The notes under the pieces were generated by a model. The model was not told where the DNA came from. It did not search any database and was given only the letters and a program-made list of their open reading frames with translations. This document shows positions 1,429-23,600 of a stretch of 30,814 nt of DNA, piece by piece; positions within the stretch are counted from its first letter, which is position 1, and each line of letters starts with the position of its first letter. The translations under genes were made by a program, and so were the position numbers. Source of the stretch: a virus; IMG/VR virus record IMGVR_UViG_3300037493_006033, positions 1 through 30,814 of that record; one strand, given 5' to 3'.

Positions 1429-1622
1429 AATGTTCTGTTTTTAAGAGTCAGAAGTATCATTTCTCGTTTTTTAGTGTTTTTAAGGTATTTTTGATAATCT
1501 TCATTTGCTTTCGTTATCAGCTGATGTGCACGTTTTCTCCCGTTTCCGCAGCTCCTTTCCGCCTTCTCAAATTCAGCAAACCGCGGCCACTTTACAAACC
1601 ATGTATTGAAGTCCTCTTTCAT
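1425..1622 (-). CDS. 65-residue basic unknown protein of the RadC operon
   Basis: A small, Lys/Arg-rich, mostly helical protein (RAHQLITKANEDYQKYLKNT in the middle), rich in aromatic residues near the N-terminus (FNTWFVKWPRFAEF). Both ends overlap neighbours by ATGA, so its translation is coupled to the RadC-like gene before it and the 124-residue gene after it. The basic charge would allow nucleic-acid binding, but there is no recognisable fold signature. No family assigned. Confidence 0.6.
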   Translation of the reverse strand: MKEDFNTWFVKWPRFAEFEKAERSCGNGRKRAHQLITKANEDYQKYLKNTKKREMILLTLKNRTL

Positions 1623-2131
1623 AGCAGTCCTTCATCTGCAAATGAATAATATCCGAAATCATCTACACTCTCAACGCCTCTGCCCTCAATCGTCTTTGGC
1701 GCGTAAATAATATGTTCCAGCAAAATCACCTCATGCAACTTCAACGCTTCCTTTAATTTCTTCGTGAGCGCAATATCTTGCTGACTCGCATTCAAATTCC
1801 CACTCGGATGATTGTGAATCATTATAATTCCTTTTACCTGAAAAGCCGTCGCCAGCTGCGCTACAAACATCGGCTCCACAACGGTCCCCGTCATCCCTCC
1901 GATACTCACGGTCTGAAATCCCTTGATTGCATTATTCCTGTTCAACAGAAATATATGAAAACGCTCCCGATGACAGTCCTGTTCAAGATCAATCACCAAC
2001 TCCCGTACAAGTGCCATCGCATCCTGGCTATTACTTATCTTCCGGCTCATTACATGCCCGCTGTAATTAAACCCTACCGTTAACTCCGCTACTAACCCGG
2101 AACTAACAGGAAATTTATACTTCTTTTTCAT
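1619..2131 (-). CDS. RadC-like JAB/MPN-domain protein
   Basis: A 170-residue protein with the RadC (JAB/MPN/JAMM) fold. The zinc-site signature is intact: HNHPSGN at residues 106-112 followed by the SxxD part (S116, D119), and an upstream acidic residue E56 in RERFHIFLLNRNN, the position of the conserved Glu of the family. Cellular RadC is about 225 residues and carries an N-terminal helix-hairpin-helix region. That region is absent here, so this is the short form found on phages, plasmids and genomic islands. The biochemical role of RadC is unsettled despite its name; a JAMM site implies a metal-dependent hydrolase, but no substrate is known. It is the first gene of a three-gene coupled operon. 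An AT-rich perfect inverted repeat lies just upstream. Confidence 0.9.
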   Translation of the reverse strand: MKKKYKFPVSSGLVAELTVGFNYSGHVMSRKISNSQDAMALVRELVIDLEQDCHRERFHIFLLNRNNAIKGFQTVSIGGMTGTVVEPMFVAQLATAFQVKGIIMIHNHPSGNLNASQQDIALTKKLKEALKLHEVILLEHIIYAPKTIEGRGVESVDDFGYYSFADEGLL

Positions 2132-2149
2132 AAATGTTCGAAAAAAGAA

Positions 2150-2168
2150 AAATTTAAGTCTTAAATTT
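2150..2168. promoter_or_regulatory. Perfect AT-only inverted repeat upstream of the RadC operon
   Basis: AAATTTAA-GTC-TTAAATTT, 8 bp arms and a 3-bp centre, located 18 bp before the RadC-like start codon. Its symmetry and position suit an operator. A weak AT-only hairpin followed by T residues on the minus strand (leader attenuator) is the alternative. It overlaps the TAA of the small reading frame at 2167-2250. Confidence 0.45.
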
Positions 2169-2565
2169 AATTATCAACATCCGTAATTCCATCATTTTTC
2201 CTATTTATATTTGTCAAATAAAATTGATCACTGACTAAAGGTTCATCCATTAGGTAATGCCCTAACTGACGTAATTGATATCCGTCGACTTGCCCGCCCC
2301 GCTAGGACTCCATTATCTTCTCCCAAAATCAGAGTGCAAGGAGTTACTTCCATTCACCAACACGCGACAAAAGCGAAATAGGATGGGTGTGCCCGGCCAT
2401 TGACTCCTAATCACAGACAACCCAGCACTGCACGCAGCTCTGCCTACGATCTTCTTATACTTGTATCGAACCCCTGCCCCTCTCTATACTCTCTGAAAGC
2501 AACTCAAATCTCGTCCGGGCCGGGCTATACTTGTCTATAGCCCTCAACTGCCTCCCCTCCTCAAT
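2167..2565 (-). pseudogene. Stop-interrupted protein-like reading frame (decayed gene or structured RNA)
   Basis: One minus-strand frame gives protein-like segments separated by stops. It begins IEEGRQLRAIDKYSPARTRF (from 2565) and reaches TAA at 2455-2457. It then shows further short open stretches and ends with a 44-codon piece containing GGQVDGYQLRQLGHYLMDEP and VSDQFYLTNINRKNDG before TAA at 2167-2169. All three stop codons occur inside, so no altered genetic code rescues it. The last part has an ATG at 2248-2250, which would give a 27-residue peptide. The block is GC-richer than its surroundings and is strongly C-rich on the plus strand, suggesting foreign origin. It also folds (8-bp hairpin at 2522-2543), so a structured RNA is a real alternative. 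No family recognised. Confidence 0.3.
2391..2543. other. Potential RNA fold with a local hairpin and a long-range pairing
   Basis: GGGCTATA at 2522-2529 and TATAGCCC at 2536-2543 form a perfect 8-bp hairpin with a 6-nt loop. In addition GCCCGGCC at 2391-2398 is the exact complement of GGCCGGGC at 2518-2525, which would close a 119-nt loop and compete with part of the hairpin. Such mutually exclusive pairings can occur in regulatory RNAs, but short GC-rich complements also occur by chance. Direction is not determined. Confidence 0.3.
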
Positions 2566-2604
2566 CTAAATCTCTCTCGCTAAAATAAAAATACCTCACT
2601 AAAA

Positions 2605-2633
2605 TAATAATTGATTGTTTCTGTTAATTATTA
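2605..2633. repeat. AT-rich inverted repeat
   Basis: TAATAATT at 2605-2612 and AATTATTA at 2626-2633 are perfect complements separated by 13 bp. It lies in gene-free DNA between the decayed block and the plus-strand terminator, in sequence that also repeats CTAAAATAA-type words. It could be a protein-binding site or part of a promoter region for a plus-strand transcript. Confidence 0.35.
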
Positions 2634-2698
2634 CTATCTTCACACCGTAATCCTAAGGCCCAGCTTTGGTTACTAGATTTGGAAGAGATCTATAGGGA

Positions 2699-2725
2699 AA
2701 AGACACTGTAACAGGTGTCTTTTTT
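2699..2725 (+). terminator. Plus-strand intrinsic terminator with no obvious gene before it
   Basis: AAGACAC at 2700-2706 pairs with GTGTCTT at 2715-2721, with extra TG/CA pairs possible in the loop, and is followed by a run of six T residues. The T-tract is better on the plus strand than on the minus strand (TTTT only). All neighbouring genes are on the minus strand, so a plus-strand transcript ending here would be noncoding or very short. Confidence 0.6.
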
Positions 2726-2775
2726 ATTGATGTGTATATGATGAGTACAACAGAGTAGTATTGATAACATCACTG

Positions 2776-2927
2776 TTACACAATCACAAAACAGGAAACC
2801 CACCCTGAAGTTGTGCTCTGTTGAAGTTGTGGTGTGGTGCTCTGTGGAGGATGGTGAATTGATGTGTGTTCCTGAGCAGGCATAGAGAGCAGTTGCTGAA
2901 TTGATGTGGCGTGCGCAGCAGAGAAGC
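2776..2927. repeat. Low-complexity region with short direct repeats
   Basis: A G/T-rich stretch (plus strand) without a credible gene. Short words recur: GAAGTTGTG twice, GTGCTCTGT twice, and GAATTGATGTG twice (about 2855 and 2899). It leads directly into the two tandem arrays. Open frames through it on the minus strand seem to result from the A/C-rich composition of that strand. Confidence 0.5.
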
Positions 2928-2981
2928 GCGTGTCTAAATGGAAGTGCGTGTCTAAATGGAAGTGCGTGTCTAAATGGAAGT
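2928..2981. repeat. Three exact tandem copies of an 18-bp unit
   Basis: GCGTGTCTAAATGGAAGT is repeated at 2928-2945, 2946-2963 and 2964-2981 without mismatch. The preceding 14 bases, AGAAGCGCGTGTCT (2922-2935), overlap the first unit and recur at 5173-5186 in the divergent control region. The length is a multiple of three but the array is directly followed by an 11-bp array, so coding use is unlikely. Confidence 0.9.
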
Positions 2982-2984
2982 GCT

Positions 2985-3134
2985 GTAGGAGTGTTGTAGC
3001 TCTGCTGTAGAAGTGTTGTAGAAGTGTTGTAGAAGTGTTGTAGAAGTGCTGTAGAAGTGCTGTAGAAGTGCTGTAGAAGTGTTGTAGAAGTGCTGTAGAA
3101 GTGCTGTAGAAGTGTTGTAGCTCTGCTGTAGAAG
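2985..3134. repeat. 11-bp tandem array, 13 full units plus a partial one
   Basis: The unit is GTAGAAGTG(T/C)T. Ten units match this exactly apart from the T/C choice. The first reads GTAGGAGTGTT. Units 2 (2996-3006) and 13 (3117-3127) both read GTAGCTCTGCT and bracket the ten regular units. A partial unit at 3128-3134 runs into the terminator hairpin. The period is close to one DNA helical turn, so the copies face the same side of the helix, as in iteron-like or cooperative binding arrays. There are no spacers, so it is not a CRISPR array. Confidence 0.9.
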
Positions 3135-3135
3135 C

Positions 3136-3159
3136 CAAAAGCCCCTTTCGGGGCTTTTG
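3136..3159. terminator. Intrinsic terminator after the 186-residue gene
   Basis: CAAAAGCCCC-TTTC-GGGGCTTTTG is a perfect 10-bp hairpin; on the minus strand the loop is GAAA and the T run is part of the stem. It begins 7 bp after the stop of the gene at 3166-3726 and abuts the 11-bp array. The symmetric A/T flanks could let it act in both directions. Confidence 0.75.
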
Positions 3160-3165
3160 TAATGG

Positions 3166-3726
3166 TTAGAATGATGACTCAGCAGATACTGTTGCTTTAG
3201 AAGCAGGCTTTGTGCCGACGACTTTGAGACGACCGTTCTCTTCTTTGATGACAAAGATACATTTTGCACCTCTGAAATCAGCAGCAGATTCGATATCTTC
3301 TAGACCGCAATCAAATGCATGACCACGGTAGATATCTTTGACGGCTTGTGATTTCTTGTGATTGGTTTTATCAATCACGTCGCTTTCCATGTTCATCGGT
3401 AATGGAAGTCGCTTTCCCGACAATTTGTTGATGGCATATGTGGTGCCTTCGTATTCTTTTGTCGTGTATTTCCCTGACTGCTTTTCTTTTTCAGTAAGGT
3501 CTTCGAACTTCGCAAAAGCGACTTGGTTAATAAAGAGCGACAAAATCTTGCCTTCCTTATTCGTGCCTGTCAATTTCAGCTGCTGTATCCCGTCGTGGAA
3601 TATTGCCTCTGATTTTTCTGGCGTAGCCATGTCCGCCGCGATGATGGTAACTTCGTAGTTGCCTGGCTCGTCAATCAGCTTGCTGTTCGACTTTGCGGAC
3701 ATTGGTGTTGCAAATAAATTACTCAT
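3166..3726 (-). CDS. 186-residue unknown protein, possible ssDNA-binding-type
   Basis: A soluble protein with a beta-rich centre (residues 23-75, NYEVTIIAADMA and GKILSLFINQVAFAKF), a basic middle part, and a short tail ending SAESSF. An OB-fold-like core with a Ser/acidic C-terminal tail ending in Phe is reminiscent of single-stranded-DNA-binding proteins, which phage early regions usually encode. I see no decisive motif, so this is a weak suggestion. The gene stands alone: it has its own leader with a 10-bp inverted repeat (3751-3776), a TATAAT-like box just upstream of that repeat, and its own terminator. ATG at 3724-3726 is the first start in frame. Confidence 0.7.
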   Translation of the reverse strand: MSNLFATPMSAKSNSKLIDEPGNYEVTIIAADMATPEKSEAIFHDGIQQLKLTGTNKEGKILSLFINQVAFAKFEDLTEKEKQSGKYTTKEYEGTTYAINKLSGKRLPLPMNMESDVIDKTNHKKSQAVKDIYRGHAFDCGLEDIESAADFRGAKCIFVIKEENGRLKVVGTKPASKATVSAESSF

Positions 3727-3918: not shown

Positions 3919-4470
3919 TTATTTAAGAGGTATTGTTGGACAATTGTCATTCGTTCTAATAATCTTAACAGGGATAATAACTTCATCTGTTTTAGAACGC
4001 TCGAACAATTTATCGAAGGAAACATTAGTGATCTTGAAAAACCAATTTAGATACGATAAATTGGTAATTGCTACATCGCAAACTCTGCAGCCTTTAAATT
4101 TACCAAATGGTAATTCAGCTGTTACGCGATGATACATTTGTTCAACAGATATAGTATCGATAGAATTTTCGATACAGTCAATTTTTTGATTGACTTCTTT
4201 TATCTGTTGTTCAAATTTTCTTTTCAAGTCTTGAATCTGTTGTTCAAATTTTCTTTTCAAGTCTTGTTTCCTTAAATTGATTTCTTTCTGAACAACCTGA
4301 ACATCTTCATCAATAGAGGTTTCGTAATTTATGAACGCTCTGATAACATTCAGGTGTTGATGAAACATGTGACTGTTCCATTTTGTACCGTCCGACAGAA
4401 AGATACTTGCATTTGTTCTGTTTGTTTGGTAAACAGAACCGTTGATAAATCCTATGATTGACTTAATCAT
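3919..4470 (-). CDS. Coiled-coil protein with DUF3820/ExoX-C-like motif
   Basis: A 183-residue protein in three parts. Residues 1-50 are an unassigned N-terminal domain. Residues about 55-105 form a charged coiled coil containing an exact duplication of an 11-residue unit, QDLKRKFEQQI. Residues about 118-145 carry LPFGKFKGCRVCDVAI-NLSYLNWFF, matching the pattern PFGKxKG...L-W-F of the DUF3820 / exodeoxyribonuclease-X C-terminal family. In cellular proteins that small domain is often fused to a DEDD exonuclease; no nuclease domain is present here, so it would act as a binding module. The gene is monocistronic, with a terminator on each side. The coiled coil implies an oligomer or a partner protein. 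Confidence 0.75.
   Translation of the reverse strand: MIKSIIGFINGSVYQTNRTNASIFLSDGTKWNSHMFHQHLNVIRAFINYETSIDEDVQVVQKEINLRKQDLKRKFEQQIQDLKRKFEQQIKEVNQKIDCIENSIDTISVEQMYHRVTAELPFGKFKGCRVCDVAITNLSYLNWFFKITNVSFDKLFERSKTDEVIIPVKIIRTNDNCPTIPLK
4203..4266. repeat. In-frame 33-bp tandem duplication inside the coiled-coil gene
   Basis: The 33-bp unit at 4203-4235 is repeated from 4236, with 31 identical bases up to 4266. It adds one 11-residue step (three helical turns) to the coiled coil. Complete nucleotide identity suggests a recent duplication. Confidence 0.85.
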
Positions 4471-4522: not shown

Positions 4523-4546
4523 AAAAATAGCCCTTTCGGGCTATAT
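4523..4546 (-). terminator. Intrinsic terminator after the 76-residue gene
   Basis: On the minus strand ATAGCCC-GAAA-GGGCTAT is followed by TTTTTC. It starts directly at the stop codon of the gene at 4547-4777. Its core AGCCCGAAAGGGCT is the same as in the terminator at 3857-3887. Confidence 0.85.
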
Positions 4547-4818: not shown

Positions 4819-4835
4819 AGTAATGGCGTGTCCTG

Positions 4836-4910
4836 TTACTTACTATCGTAAGTGATGGCATCTTCTTTAACAATTGTCAAAGTGCCATCAGAAAGAATAT
4901 AATAAATCAT
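4836..4910 (-). CDS. 24-residue ORF enclosed by two terminators (candidate)
   Basis: ATG at 4908-4910, TAA at 4836-4838, product beginning MIYYILSDGTLTIVKEDAIT. The sequence is protein-like and ends 18 bp before the next terminator hairpin, a normal gene-terminator distance. However the ATG comes only 4 bp after the T-tract of the previous terminator and there is no ribosome-binding sequence in that T-run. It may be a tiny gene fed by read-through, or the interval may encode a short RNA. I keep it as a candidate only. Confidence 0.3.
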   Translation of the reverse strand: MIYYILSDGTLTIVKEDAITYDSK

Positions 4911-5137
4911 GAACAAAAAAAAAACAACACATCGTCATGACGATGTGTTGTAGAGCCCTGATTATCTCCTTGTCCGTAAAGCAGGATACAGCTAAGCGTT
5001 TGTATTCTCTCACGTGGATACGCATAAACTAAACGCGTGAGAGCACTCATCAAATGCACACTTGTTTCGTAGGGTGCATAGCCTGACACCAATCGATTGA
5101 TGTCATACAATAGAGAAACTACGCTTATAAGCAGCAT
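4907..5137 (-). CDS. Doubtful 76-residue ORF running through a terminator
   Basis: An open frame from ATG 5135-5137 (MLLISVVSLLYDINRLVSGY) to TGA at 4907-4909. The first part reads like protein (hydrophobic N-terminus, then ETSVHLMSALTRLVYAYPRE), but its last third is written by a 26-bp perfect palindrome and a ten-T tract that look like an intrinsic terminator, giving the tail THRHDDVLFFFCS. A gene rarely ends beyond its own terminator. A second frame through the same interval is also open, so the reading is not unique. The interval could be a short structured RNA instead, since it also has an 8-bp inverted repeat at 5007-5043. No family recognised. Confidence 0.3.
   Translation of the reverse strand: MLLISVVSLLYDINRLVSGYAPYETSVHLMSALTRLVYAYPRERIQTLSCILLYGQGDNQGSTTHRHDDVLFFFCS
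4915..4951 (-). terminator. Strong palindromic intrinsic terminator
   Basis: A perfect 26-bp palindrome at 4925-4950 (arms beginning CAACACATCG) is followed on the minus strand by ten T residues. It would close any minus-strand transcript from the 5137 side and lies inside the doubtful 76-residue ORF. Confidence 0.85.
5007..5043. repeat. 8-bp inverted repeat with 21-bp loop
   Basis: CTCTCACG at 5007-5014 and CGTGAGAG at 5036-5043 are perfect complements. The loop itself contains GGATACGC and AAACGCG words. It supports folding of a minus-strand transcript here. Confidence 0.4.
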
Positions 5138-5414
5138 CGGTAAGCATAGTCATAGCATAAGCAGAAGCACAAAGAAGCGCGTGTCTGAAGGGATGCCAGC
5201 ATTTTTGCTACCCCCGGACAGCAAAGCCTACCCCCCTACTTTTTAAAACCAGCCATATAGGTTCCCTTGTAGACGGATATAATGTAGTGTTGTTCAGTGC
5301 AGAGTAGGGTGTTGATAAGTTGGCAAATTGTTTTTATAAACAATTGTAAAATATATTGGGATATGAATTACTTTTATAGCAGGAATTTTTCTTTTATTTA
5401 ACACTAATAGAATA
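5138..5414. promoter_or_regulatory. Divergent control region between early-type and late modules
   Basis: Gene-free DNA between the last minus-strand and first plus-strand genes, where transcription of the two halves must diverge. It holds the copy of AGAAGCGCGTGTCT at 5173-5186, two related C-rich words (GCTACCCCC, GCCTACCCCCC) at about 5207-5237, a TATAAT box at 5278-5283 without a good -35 partner, and an inverted repeat at 5326-5345. TTG at 5344-5346 with TACTTTTA at 5369-5376 vaguely resembles the Bacteroidota TTG / TAnnTTTG promoter, but the spacing is longer than usual and the box is imperfect. Confidence 0.5.
5326..5345. promoter_or_regulatory. Operator-like perfect inverted repeat upstream of the late module
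   Basis: AATTGTTT-TTAT-AAACAATT, 8-bp arms around a 4-bp centre, 70 bp before the first plus-strand start. It is not followed by a T-tract, so a protein-binding site is more likely than a terminator. It touches the possible -33 element. Confidence 0.5.
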
Positions 5415-5771
5415 ATGGATCCTGTGGGCATGAGGTTGGACTTGTGTAGTCTACGGGGTTCATTAAAGAAATATATGGAACACTTAATTAAGGCAAAGAA
5501 ATTTTTGGGGTGTAATTCGGATTACATGAGTTTGATGGATCATTTGGACAGTGAGAGTTATTATTCGTCGTTGAAGGATCCGGATCTGGGGCTGTTGTGG
5601 CCATTTCTGACAGAGGTAGAGTTGATGCCTGGAGAGGTGGTAGAATATTGGGAGGTAAGAAGGGTGAGTTGGTTTGCGGGATATGTGTTGTTGTTTGAGA
5701 GTGTAGAGATGTTAAATGAGTATGTACGGTTACGGGAGCTAAAAGAGTTAAACAATCAAATAAAGAAGTAA
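5415..5771 (+). CDS. 118-residue unknown protein, first gene of the plus-strand module
   Basis: An acidic-to-neutral soluble protein, helical in its ends (LRGSLKKYMEHLIKAKKFLG near the N-terminus, EMLNEYVRLRELKELNNQIKK at the C-terminus) with an aromatic middle (VVEYWEVRRVSWFAGYVLLF). The ATG at 5415 follows an AT-rich leader with no Shine-Dalgarno site. It ends 1 bp before the next start, so the two are coupled. The DNA is noticeably G-rich on the coding strand, unlike the terminase and later genes. Function unknown. Confidence 0.65.
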   Translation: MDPVGMRLDLCSLRGSLKKYMEHLIKAKKFLGCNSDYMSLMDHLDSESYYSSLKDPDLGLLWPFLTEVELMPGEVVEYWEVRRVSWFAGYVLLFESVEMLNEYVRLRELKELNNQIKK

Positions 5772-5772
5772 G

Positions 5773-6027
5773 ATGAATGAAGAAGAATTAGACAAAATTT
5801 ACGAGAATTTGAAGGGCAGTTCTGATTATAAGTCAGAATTGGAGTGGTTGTATGATAATGGGACATTGACCTTAGAGGAGTATGAAAATTTGAGTATGGA
5901 GCTTTCGGAAGCTGGAAAAATAGTTCCGAAAGCTAACGAAAATCCGGTTGGAGGTGAGTATGTCCATAAGGATGTGAATTACACGAAACGGTCACCACTG
6001 GAAACTGTTCATCCGGATAAAGGATAA
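5773..6027 (+). CDS. 84-residue acidic unknown protein
   Basis: A small acidic protein. Residues 1-45 look like two helices with a turn (ELEWLYDNGTLTLEEYENLS resembles the short 'YDxGxITxxEYE' helix-turn found in many phage and SHOCT-like small proteins). The rest is extended and polar. The start follows the previous stop directly. A 62-bp gap with an AAGGATAAC word separates it from the next gene. No function assigned; an oligomerisation or protein-contact role is possible from the SHOCT-like pattern. Confidence 0.6.
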   Translation: MNEEELDKIYENLKGSSDYKSELEWLYDNGTLTLEEYENLSMELSEAGKIVPKANENPVGGEYVHKDVNYTKRSPLETVHPDKG

Positions 6028-6089
6028 GATTTAGGGATTCATGATTTCCAAGACGACACAGAAGGATAACAATTAAAAAAACGAGTTAT

Positions 6090-6674
6090 ATGAAAATTAC
6101 AAGGGTAAAAATGCTAGATAATGGTCTGAAGGGCTTAGAAATCTGGTTTGACAAGAATGAGGACCGCGGAGGTCTGACATTTACGAATTCGTATCATGTG
6201 AAAGTTCGGGTACCGGTGAACAGTTATTTGCGTGGGGCGTTCCATTCTTTGGAGCGAGATTTTGCGAAGTTGCTGGGGTTAACGGAGACGGTGAATTTCA
6301 GTACAGTTCTTGACGTGAGTTATCGCAAAGGCGAAGGCGTAGTTCTTGGGGGCAGGGTGAGTGTAGGTAGCTGGGGTGAGTATGGGGCCAAGACGATGTT
6401 TGTAGGTCAGGACAATGAGTATCCGAATTACGAGAAGCTGGAGGGTTTTTGTTCGGAGTTGATTGATTTAACGAACAAGTGGATGGTAGAGAGTACTGGT
6501 ATCAATTCAAAGCAGATGTTAATGGATTTCCGGGAATTCGGAAAAGAGAATATGAAATTAGCGTTAGCGGATTATGACTTTGACAGTATGAGTCCGGAAG
6601 ATGCTACGGCAAAAGCGATGGAATTGTTGGAGAAACAAGGAGCAGTAATAATGATGCAAGATGATGCATTTTAA
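6090..6674 (+). CDS. 194-residue unknown protein upstream of the nuclease
   Basis: A beta-rich N-terminal two thirds (MKITRVKMLDNGLKGLEIWF, then YHVKVRVPVNSYL and VSYRKGEGVVLGGRVSVG) followed by a helical, Met- and acid-rich C-terminus ending MMQDDAF. The acidic tail ending in Phe is like the protein-interaction tails of ssDNA-binding proteins, and the beta-rich body could be an OB fold. Its place directly before a PD-(D/E)XK nuclease, with which it overlaps by 14 bp, would suit a recombination or replication partner such as an annealing or ssDNA-binding protein. This is inference; no diagnostic motif was seen. Confidence 0.65.
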   Translation: MKITRVKMLDNGLKGLEIWFDKNEDRGGLTFTNSYHVKVRVPVNSYLRGAFHSLERDFAKLLGLTETVNFSTVLDVSYRKGEGVVLGGRVSVGSWGEYGAKTMFVGQDNEYPNYEKLEGFCSELIDLTNKWMVESTGINSKQMLMDFREFGKENMKLALADYDFDSMSPEDATAKAMELLEKQGAVIMMQDDAF

Positions 6675-7416
6675 TACTGGAGTAATAAGAAAGGATCCTG
6701 AGCATATTTACTATAATGCTCAGGGTTCTATTTTAAAGGGCGTGAGTGGAATATTGAAGCTGATACAGGAGCCTTTTGACGGGAATGGTATCAGCAGGAA
6801 TATAGCGATTTCGAAGTTAAAGGGGAGTGGCGAGCGAATGACAAGTGCTTCTATTGACAGGGTGAGTCAGGAGATACAGGCTGGGTGGAAAGGCTACGGT
6901 ATAGAGCGGGCCAATATGGGAACTGTTTTCCATGAAGAGATGGAGAATTTTATAAAATTCGGCACTACTAATGGAATTCACAAGAAGTTGGTGGAGGCGG
7001 TTTACTTGACATACTTCAGGGATTTCTACCGGAATTATGCTGAGGTGATATTAAGTGATGGAACGACACTTGCGGGAACGGCAGATGTATTGAGTAGTCA
7101 TAGTTCAAAGCAGCAGGACTTTATTCATATCCGGGATTACAAGACGAATAAGGAGAAGCCTGTTAACGATGTTAATGCTAAGGCAAAGAATAAGTTTATG
7201 TTGTCTCCTGTGGACTATATGCTGGACAATAAGTATAATTATTACTGTCTACAACAGAGCATCTATGCGTACTTGTTAACGTTGATGGGATATAAAATTG
7301 GGAGTATATCATTAATTTGGGTACATTTAGAGAGTGGTCATCATGAGCGAGTAGATTTACCGTTTATGTACGAGGAAGCAAAGAAGTTGGTACAATTTGC
7401 AAAAACGGTAAACTGA
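6661..7416 (+). CDS. PD-(D/E)XK superfamily nuclease (RecB/Cas4-like)
   Basis: A 251-residue protein with the full motif set of the superfamily. There is GTVFHEEMENF at 88-97 (His91 and Glu92/93), LAGTADVL at 137-144 (Asp142 as the first metal ligand), and IRDYKTNK at 157-164 (Asp159 and Lys161, the D-x-K core). QQSIYAYLL at 198-206 supplies the Q-x-x-x-Y helix (Gln199/Tyr203 region). Members are metal-dependent exo- or endonucleases in recombination, repair or genome processing, and crAss-like phages commonly encode one. Position just before the packaging genes suggests recombination or DNA-end processing. The start overlaps the previous gene by 14 bp and the stop overlaps the next start (TGATG). 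Confidence 0.88.
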   Translation: MMHFNTGVIRKDPEHIYYNAQGSILKGVSGILKLIQEPFDGNGISRNIAISKLKGSGERMTSASIDRVSQEIQAGWKGYGIERANMGTVFHEEMENFIKFGTTNGIHKKLVEAVYLTYFRDFYRNYAEVILSDGTTLAGTADVLSSHSSKQQDFIHIRDYKTNKEKPVNDVNAKAKNKFMLSPVDYMLDNKYNYYCLQQSIYAYLLTLMGYKIGSISLIWVHLESGHHERVDLPFMYEEAKKLVQFAKTVN

Positions 7417-7601
7417 TGGAAAAGGAAATTCTTGAATTTATAGAAGCTGTAGCAGAGATGAGAAAATTACAGCAATCATTTTATGGTTCTGTTTACGGCA
7501 CCGTAGAGCGGAGTAATTTTTTAAATTACTCTAAGGCGAAAGAGAAACAGGTGGATGCGATGATCAAAGAATTATCTTCAGGCCAAACAAAATTGTTATA
7601 A
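7416..7601 (+). CDS. 61-residue helical unknown protein
   Basis: A short, almost fully helical, charged protein (MEKEILEFIEAVAEMRKLQQ, then YSKAKEKQVDAMIKEL). It is joined to both neighbours by stop-start overlaps (TGATG before, TAATG after), so it is translated as part of the nuclease operon. The pattern 'AxxxEKxVDxxIxEL' is common in small phage proteins of unknown role. No function assigned. Confidence 0.65.
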   Translation: MEKEILEFIEAVAEMRKLQQSFYGSVYGTVERSNFLNYSKAKEKQVDAMIKELSSGQTKLL

Positions 7602-8161
7602 TGCTATTTACGATAAACGAAAAGGGGGTGTTGTTACACCCGGAAGCAGTGAAATTGGAACCGGTGTTGAAAAAACTTTCAGCGCCGGATCTTCTTTTTT
7701 TGATATTGGTGTACGACTATGATTCACCCTATAAGCAGCTTCCGGAGCTTCAGAAGAAATTGACATCTTCTCGTCGGTGCTATGATAATGATGACTTCGT
7801 AGGTCACATTAAGAGGTTAGGGAAAGCTATTGATGCCTACAATGGACTGCAGTATGATATACGTCGGGAGACGATAAAGAACTATCAAGCCAAGATAGCG
7901 GGGTTGAACATTCAGTTAATGGCTACTGATAGCACTTTAGATATAAAAAAGTTTCATGAGGCGATAGATTTTTTGACCAAGACGAGTTTACGATTACAGA
8001 AGGATTTGGTATTAGAAGAAGTGAGTGCGCTTGACGGTATTGGAGAAGATGCTTCTTTTTTAGAGAAATGGGCTGACAACAAAAGGAGATTTAAGAGTGA
8101 TCAGAAATCTATTGATTTAATTCGAAATAGAAAAGACCTAGCACATGAGCCAGAAAAGTAG
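7601..8161 (+). CDS. 186-residue helical protein, candidate small terminase subunit
   Basis: A mostly helical protein with a hydrophobic helix near residues 25-40 (LSAPDLLFLILVYDYDSPY), a central amphipathic part, and a charged C-terminus. I see no clear helix-turn-helix. Its size and its place two genes before TerL suit a small terminase subunit, which normally is a helical oligomer of 150-200 residues, but small subunits are too divergent to name from sequence. Note DAYNGLQYDIRRETIKNYQAK near residue 80, which reads as coiled coil. The end overlaps the next ORF by 17 bp; the stop is TAG. Confidence 0.6.
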   Translation: MLFTINEKGVLLHPEAVKLEPVLKKLSAPDLLFLILVYDYDSPYKQLPELQKKLTSSRRCYDNDDFVGHIKRLGKAIDAYNGLQYDIRRETIKNYQAKIAGLNIQLMATDSTLDIKKFHEAIDFLTKTSLRLQKDLVLEEVSALDGIGEDASFLEKWADNKRRFKSDQKSIDLIRNRKDLAHEPEK

Positions 8162-20690: not shown

Positions 20691-23600
20691 AAAAGGGATG
20701 GTGCAAGATTTTGCAGACCAGCCCTCCGGAACATTTTATGAAGCCTCTGCTTTTCATTTGATAAGCAAGTCGGGAAATACTTTTGCCCTAGAGAGTGCTT
20801 TAGGCAACACGTTAGTGTTTTCTGTAACAAAAGGATATACGCCAATTGGAGCAGCAGGAGTAGTAGATAAAATTGTTGTATTTAGTGCTCGTAGCGATGG
20901 GCAATCAGAAATAAGCCTAGTAACTGTAAGCAATCAGCAAACGTGTACTTGTGTACCTTTGTATAATGATAAGCTTGGATTTTCTGTAAACTTTCCAATA
21001 GAATCTTTGTTATTTCCGGAAAATGAATTTATCGAGAGAACATATTGGACGGATAGAACAACATCTCCTAAAGTTTTAAATATACTTGACGAGAGGTTGC
21101 ACATACCTTTCTTACAAGCTACTATATTACCATTAGGAAAGTACATGGTAGTGCAGGGTATAGTTGTATTCAATGGAATTTCTTATGGCCCTAGTCAAGC
21201 TTCTACGGTGTTTGAAGTAACCGGAATCACTCCAACGTTTTTTACAATAGTCGGACTAGGGACTTATAAGGTGATCGAATATATTGATAAAGATGGTTTA
21301 GATTGGACAGCTCCTGTGTTATTGGGGAATTTAAGGTTAAATCGTCCAATAGCCGGTAGTGCAAAAAATGGAATCTATGTTGCGTGTTTTCAGCTACTAA
21401 CAGAAGATGGTGCAAGTACAGCTTGGTCAATGCCATGTTTCCCTATTCGTGTAGCAGGTCCGGCAGCAGTAGGAAATATTTCTACCTATCAGAAACACGA
21501 AGGTCATTTCTCTACAGTATTATCAAATCAGGGTTTTGAGTTATTGATAGAAAATATTGATCAGAAATACAGCAGAATAAGGGTTGCCGTTGTGCATGGA
21601 ACAGATTATGGTGTTTACGGAAATCCTGTGATTATCTATGATTCAACTGTCAGTGGTGTAGATATGATTATTCCATATACGGGCTCTGAAATGATTCAGG
21701 AATTGGTAGAAGAAGATTTGTTGCAGTTTTTCAAGAAAATAAGAAAGGTTGGAACACTGGCAGTCGTCAACAACATTATGTTTCCGGGAAATATAGAATA
21801 TGGGAAAGATGTAAAGTGGGATCCTTCTACTGGTGTTAGTGCGAAATGTATCAAATATGATTTGTTTCATGATATGAGAAACGTTTCATGGGATGGAAGC
21901 TCTGTAGGTCATGCTGGAGTATCTAATCCGATTGCAGCAACAGGAAGTAATCTTATCCGAATGAAGCAATGGTATCGTGTAAAGACTGGTATCATCAATT
22001 ATTTGGGAACAAATTATTCTGTAGGTCAAATGTTTCAAGGAGAATCTTTGTCGATAAACTCATCAGCAGAAACATTTACGACACCAAATAATGGGACACT
22101 AGAAGCTGTTATTAGAATAAAGAAATACGATTTTGGTGGTGGTAATAAATATCAGATTACGCCTATTGATAATGACTTCTATGATGGCAAAGGAATGATG
22201 GCCAGTCATTATCTTAAAAGTTATTGGAGAGGTGAACGTTATCGTTGGACATTGGCATTGATTGACACATCAGGGAATATCGGATATGCGCGATGGCTTA
22301 CCGATAAAGAAATTCCGGAACAACACAAAAACGCTGGAGATCTCGATGATTTAGGAAATGCTATTGGTTTTGATGCTAGATTATTTCCATTAGAATATGG
22401 TGCTGTTTCAAATCCAAATCCTTCTTCTCCAAATCCAAGATATTGCATACGCCATATTGGTATAGAAATCAATGGAATTGACTTTAATGCTTTACTTTCA
22501 GAGTTGGGGCTAACTTCTTTTGCTCAACTAAAAGAGCATTTTAGTGGATTTACTATTTTACGATGTCCTAGAGATGCAAAAATTATTGCACAGGGTTCTA
22601 TTTATCCTATAACAAAAAAAGGATTTTCTGTTCCCGGTGGATATAGTCAATATGGTGGTCCTATGGCTGTTCGTAAAATGAGTCAAGATAATGATGGAAA
22701 AAATGGAGGTTCTGGACAAATTCAGGATTTCTATAATTTCTATTCTCCAGATTTCCAATTTCGATGGAATAGCAATCCTAGTCTGTCCGCTGCTTCAAAT
22801 GTAAAAGTTGTAGGAATCTATGATTATGCCGGTGCGGATTATGGTATGGCTCCAATTGATATAGCTGGAAATCCTGTAGCGCCTATTGTAGCAGTAGATA
22901 AAAATATTCAATACTATTCATCGGTAGGAGGTTTTCAACCAGCAGGAACAAAAATTGATATTGATGCGGCAAAATGTGCAGAAGAAATAGAATTTGCTGC
23001 CTCTGGTGGCGTTGGAAATTCAGATGTATGGTTTGATAATGGAGCAGTAAATGTAGAAGCTCACGCTTTTGATCCTTATCCATATTCACAAAGTGATCTT
23101 ACTGGTACTATTCCTCCGGCATATGGTTGTCGTTCTACAATACTTAATATCCGTTCAATAGAACCGTTTCCTTTAAATCCAGGATCTATTGCTCGTCAGG
23201 TAATAAATATCTGTAATACAAAAACATCTTTTTATGGAGGAAATGGAGCAGCAGCAAAGGCAAACAATCAATCTATTTCTGTTAATCATTATCAATCTTT
23301 TGACGATGATTTTATTTCAATGCTAAATAGTACTTCTGGAATTTGTAATGGAATAGAAATATTTGGTGGAGATGCTACTATTGGCTTGTATACGGTGAAT
23401 AGAGTGGTTAGAGGTACATGTAACGAACACAACCATGTTGTAATTTTTCCTATTGAATCAAATTGCAATTTCTTGTTACGCAATGGACGACATACTAACA
23501 AGGTAGGAGCAAGTCAATTGATTAATTATGATCCAGAAGTTTATAGCCTGAATCATGCTTTTTCAAATAATTATTTGCTTGCACCTGTTACCGGTATTCC

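Follow-up and report, generated by a model that had tools for sequence, protein, structure and literature searches.

A crAss-like phage with a short tandem array, possibly a lineage-specific expansion, in an origin-like control gap

The window analysed here spans a whole virus record of 30,814 bases. Its major capsid protein matches Pfam Crass_capsid, its terminase and portal match PHROG head-and-packaging families, and the terminase retrieves Crassvirales or unnamed phage records exclusively (22-28% identity). Crassvirus-type capsid, portal and terminase are thus all present, which agrees with the original prediction of a crAss-like genome and places the phage in the Crassvirales. The locus of interest is an 11-bp tandem array inside a 1,034-bp gap between a RadC-like gene and a gene referred to here as P0001, and the array stands, as first described, in gene-free DNA beside a second array of 18-bp units. 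The nearest relative covering this locus is the IMG/VR contig IMGVR_UViG_3300048591_001244 (79,204 bases, hereafter G001), whose terminase is 62% identical to that of the window, i.e., a distant rather than a close relative. Its first 22 bases are identical to its last 22, so it is probably complete and circular. The features of the locus are as follows:

1619-2131, minus strand: RadC-like (JAB domain) gene, left of the gap (Pfam PF04002, E 4e-27; homologue in G001)
2132-3165, no strand: gene-free gap, 1,034 bp (from the open reading frame listing, homologues on either side in G001 and the two-genome comparison)
2582-2637, plus strand: AT-rich core containing AATACCTCACT, 37/56 identical to G001 21405-21460 and reciprocal best match
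2640-2725, plus strand: RNA-like stretch, its end formed by a rightward hairpin terminator (~2696-2725), fold z -2.5, a putative short transcript
2923-2983, plus strand: 18-bp tandem array, 3.4 copies of GAAGTGCGTGTCTAAATG
2977-3134, plus strand: 11-bp tandem array, 14.4 copies of GAAGTGCTGTA
3136-3159, minus strand: hairpin with a perfect 10-bp inverted repeat, GAAA loop on the minus strand, following the gene that ends at 3166
3166-3726, minus strand: P0001, 186 aa, right of the gap (homologue beside the G001 gap on the opposite strand, 31% identity, E 4e-12)
5174-5189, plus strand: lone copy of the 18-bp array motif (GAAGCGCGTGTCTGAA, also given as AGAAGCGCGTGTCT), 0 mismatches to the degenerate pattern

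The 11-bp array is the top-scoring tandem repeat of the window (Tandem Repeats Finder score 225, 85% matches, zero indels; runner-up 130), and the 18-bp array abuts its left end. Its reality is clear from self-identity, which reaches 0.85, 0.89 and 0.95 at lags of 11, 33 and 121, respectively, against a maximum of 0.48 at any lag in 1000 dinucleotide shuffles. Read in a single register from 2979, it holds 14 full units, not the thirteen and a partial one counted originally, and the array itself extends from 2977. Seven of the 11 unit positions are invariant across the 14 units, position 5 is C or T, and a triple change from AAG to CTC (variant GTAGCTCTGCT) occurs in two units, one near either array end. 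This placement of the variant had been noted before and is correct, but the ordered design drawn from it does not hold: unit order is ordinary by permutation (p 0.33), and the array head (2977-3013) equals the tail (3098-3134) over 37 nt with one mismatch, which suggests the trace that one segmental (11-unit) duplication would leave. Judged by this internal duplication, the array shows the marks of enlargement via slippage or unequal exchange. Its longest exact repeat is 43 nt, so that assemblers working with longer words can resolve it, and the copy number as assembled is plausible. An 11-bp period set against 10.5 bp per helical turn drifts by ~17 degrees per unit and ~220 degrees over the whole array, which limits a shared helix face to neighbouring units and makes the earlier statement that every unit faces the same side of the DNA an overstatement. 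The RNA fold over the array is not significant (z -0.45), and the array pattern was present in no other IMG/VR contig.

The comparison of the locus involves two genomes, the window and G001. Terminase and capsid queries returned only G001 and a fragment (L009) without the array region; a look-up of genome contigs gave nothing, and no DNA-level relatives were found in the phage collection. In G001 the syntenic gap is 1,132 bp long and gene-free (L012 2257-3388), both flanking genes of the window have homologues there, and the gap is the exact switch between all left-going and all right-going genes. A position between diverging operons fits the G001 gap but not the array in the window, where both flanking genes are on the minus strand. 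No comparable array occurs in the G001 gap, and no tandem repeat anywhere in G001 scores above 96 (Tandem Repeats Finder). Since the original prediction had looked to conservation in relatives, this absence goes part of the way to refuting it, though G001 is distant. A junction of the array, TAAATGGAAGTGCTGTAGGAGT, resembles G001 TAAATGAACGTCCTGTAGGGGT (shuffle p 0.016), a likeness too weak for an ancestral seed, and an 11-mer common to both gaps (CAAGGAGTTAC) is within chance (p 0.18).

What the two gaps share lies further left. When both sequences are searched on both strands, the 56-bp core is the reciprocal best match: 37 of 56 positions are identical against next-best values of 31 and 30, and on this alignment the conserved object is the core, not the array. 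The core includes AATACCYCACT, which has one exact occurrence in each of the two genomes and is therefore not a repeated promoter motif. The least stable 60-mer in all 30.8 kb of the window starts at 2580, over the core; the G001 core is AT-rich without being extreme, ranking from 21420 on among the ~3-5% least stable. The distance from core to array is ~290-500 bp. The core pattern had two more IMG/VR matches, both within a single coding sequence that they share, and these were discarded as chance.

Past the core, both genomes have a rightward hairpin terminator preceded by a stretch that folds like RNA. In the window this stretch folds better than its shuffles (z -2.5), and so does its G001 counterpart (L012 2885-3122, z -3.9), which includes a strong terminator hairpin (L012 ~3090-3119) besides an 8-bp hairpin. 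The two stretches have no sequence conservation (p 0.55), and neither belongs to an Rfam family at threshold; tRNA and Rfam searches likewise found nothing.

On the right side of the gap, P0001 was assigned no family in searches that included Pfam, and as a query it found no match in IMG/VR or the phage collection. Its structural model is beta-rich and of low confidence (pLDDT 52.5), and the best solved Foldseek matches are to the ssDNA-binding OB-fold protein PrgE (E 0.03-0.04), a hint of weak likeness in a predicted model rather than an identification. The order gap-P0001 is the same in both genomes and the strand of P0001 opposite; P0001 and a short downstream frame keep their order from the gap with strands swapped (window 3166-3726 and 4833-4928; L012 3389-3943 and 4307-4402), an arrangement for which, from the coordinates, one simple inversion is insufficient. 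The hairpin at 3136-3159 is most likely the terminator of P0001, as read from its minus-strand GAAA loop and its position after a minus-strand gene, and similar hairpins near 4527, 4797 and 4924 are read as minus-strand terminators in the same way. Further along, a minus-strand gene (3919-4470) contains a perfect 33-bp tandem duplication at 4202-4266 that adds 11 residues in frame.

Cumulative GC skew, which had been proposed as a check on an origin at this site, reaches its minimum in the gap of both genomes (window 2661, G001 21488), ~25-30 bases past the core in each, and the window minimum is unchanged once the arrays are removed. On the left side of the minimum the non-coding DNA of both genomes is rich in C, on the right side in G. 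The present strand switch of the window, near 5140-5410, is ~2.5 kb away from the window minimum, which stands at the gap, and third-position skew of the minus-strand genes differs across the gap (p 0.0007; p 0.005 at fourfold sites). This synonymous-site flip is present in the window and reversed in G001, where plus-strand GC skew at fourfold sites has positive values on the left of the gap and, once past the first genes, mostly negative ones on the right. The sign in G001 is the reverse of that predicted for a bidirectional origin, so this skew lends a replication origin no support, and because of this reversal the whole-genome skew minimum of G001 mainly follows gene orientation. As a separate observation, the first right-going genes of the window (5415-8161) have a fourfold G over C skew of +0.68, falling to at most +0.27 further on, and the same trend is seen next to the G001 gap (+0.39).

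Other signs of an origin were sought at the same locus. DnaA boxes were not enriched, and no initiator family was recognised among the tested neighbours in the window, itself a fragment, or the tested early-arm proteins of G001. That G001 arm, next to the gap, encodes a DnaB helicase and another helicase; it also encodes a protein E of the PRTRC system and a protein with weak likeness to DUF932 (L018 9024-9683 and 10762-11934), both of families associated with plasmids. Full-text literature searches yielded no mapped replication origin of a crAss-like phage, such an absence being no proof.

Overall, we propose, with a probability of about 0.45, that this crAss-like phage has a conserved, origin-like control gap in which the array is a tandem expansion peculiar to its lineage. 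The expansion part rests on the presence of the array in the window and its absence from the G001 gap, and on the 37-nt head-to-tail copy and the identity of 0.95 at lag 121; the reading of the gap as origin-like or divergent control rests on the syntenic gap, the skew minimum, the meltable core, the third-position skew that differs across the gap in the window, the terminated RNA-like stretches and the replication genes in the G001 arm. The core would be a site of DNA opening, for the start of replication and/or divergent early transcription, from which a short terminated RNA may be transcribed rightward, and the 18-bp and 11-bp arrays would have grown in the gap's right arm through slippage or unequal exchange. 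If the arrays act at all, they would most likely serve a phage initiator or a protein of nucleoid type as accessory, iteron-like binding sites; such a role is possible, and drift is about as likely. The origin that the original prediction held plausible at the array thus keeps some footing in the gap, with its skew minimum, melting core and the replication genes of the G001 arm, while the non-conservation of the array and the contrary synonymous skew of G001 speak against it. These probabilities are not mutually exclusive: the proposed reading concerns gap and array together, and of the two main alternatives below, the first concerns the array alone and the second the gap alone.

The first of these, that the array came about by neutral slippage in non-coding DNA and has no binding partner and a drifting copy number, is a serious contender that we nonetheless hold to be somewhat improbable. 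It accords with the array-free syntenic gap of G001, with the lack of the array in other IMG/VR contigs, with its ordinary RNA fold, and with two other Crassvirales that have no tandem arrays at their strand switch; the 37-nt internal duplication and exact repeats of up to 43 nt would moreover mark recent growth. The invariance of seven of 11 positions over 14 units argues against it, though young copies would show such invariance likewise. Beyond what plain drift needs are the two distinct arrays side by side and a lone, perfect occurrence of the 18-bp motif elsewhere. That occurrence sits in the second long gene-free gap of the window, at the strand switch (5138-5414), against 0.46 matches with up to three mismatches expected by chance, and it hints at a possible binding-site role for the 18-bp motif, more so than for the 11-bp unit.

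Rather unlikely, in our estimate, is that the gap serves divergent early promoters instead of an origin, with transcription leaving the core both ways and making the skew flip, and with the array as regulator-binding or spacer sequence on the right. The position of the G001 gap exactly at the switch from left-going to right-going genes is what such a region would have, the sense strand is G-rich on either side of the core in both genomes, the synonymous skew of G001 is unlike that of replication, and the rightward terminator in both genomes implies rightward transcription. In the window, however, P0001 points back at the gap, and transcription to the right would make no mRNA there; none of the promoter patterns used, which do not include other types of host promoter, gave a conspicuous consensus; and the core motif is single in each genome. 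Origin and divergent-promoter readings are close, and both may hold. It is more doubtful still that the gap is the replication origin of an uncharacterised environmental crAss-like lineage, with a kept 56-bp core, a short terminated RNA and fast-evolving, replaceable iteron arrays. A coding minus strand across the array, whether as a repeat protein (120-aa frame at 2776-3138) or as a readthrough tail of P0001, can be dismissed as extremely improbable, since its frames, although all open across the array and kept in one frame by the 18-bp and 33-bp periods, are open by construction with a stop-free 11-bp unit, the sole start available is the TTG located at the hairpin, a TAA and then a terminator hairpin close P0001, and neither a family match nor a G001 counterpart was found.

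The reading of the array as a lineage-specific expansion in a control gap can be set against known systems. Like iteron-type origins (theta plasmids; the lambda O sites), the window has several direct repeats of initiator size (14.4 x 11 bp and 3.4 x 18 bp) and an easily melted AT-rich stretch (the 60-mer at 2580) in one non-coding region, and the neighbouring arm, here that of G001, carries DNA replication genes. Unlike them, it has no DnaA-box cluster and no cognate initiator gene identified among the tested window neighbours and G001 early-arm proteins, the repeats are not kept in the one distant relative compared, and the array lies ~290-500 bp from the AT-rich core, to which iterons are usually closer. 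Intergenic minisatellite-like tandem repeats of phages share the homogeneous short units, growth by duplication and lineage specificity; they differ in that the present array lies beside a second, different one, the gap around them having a conserved core and a skew flip. Strand-switch gaps of other Crassvirales are similar in having the skew minimum at the strand switch (ProJPt-Bp1, cr4_1) or near it (phi14:2), in or beside gene-poor DNA, and dissimilar in having no tandem array there, as well as in the ~2.5 kb that separates the window minimum from the present strand switch. For mapping either an origin or a promoter, the ~60-bp core at a syntenic skew flip is a small, concrete target, and the array illustrates that eye-catching repeats can be the least conserved part of a region.

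Finally, Cellulophaga phage phi14:2 has a 1.7-kb stretch (L024 2905-4601) upstream of its DNA replication genes; small genes once predicted in this stretch have been withdrawn from the record. Within it, a segment around 3600 is 90% AT and a 15-bp unit is repeated in tandem at ~3550-3587, and the stretch is a candidate origin.
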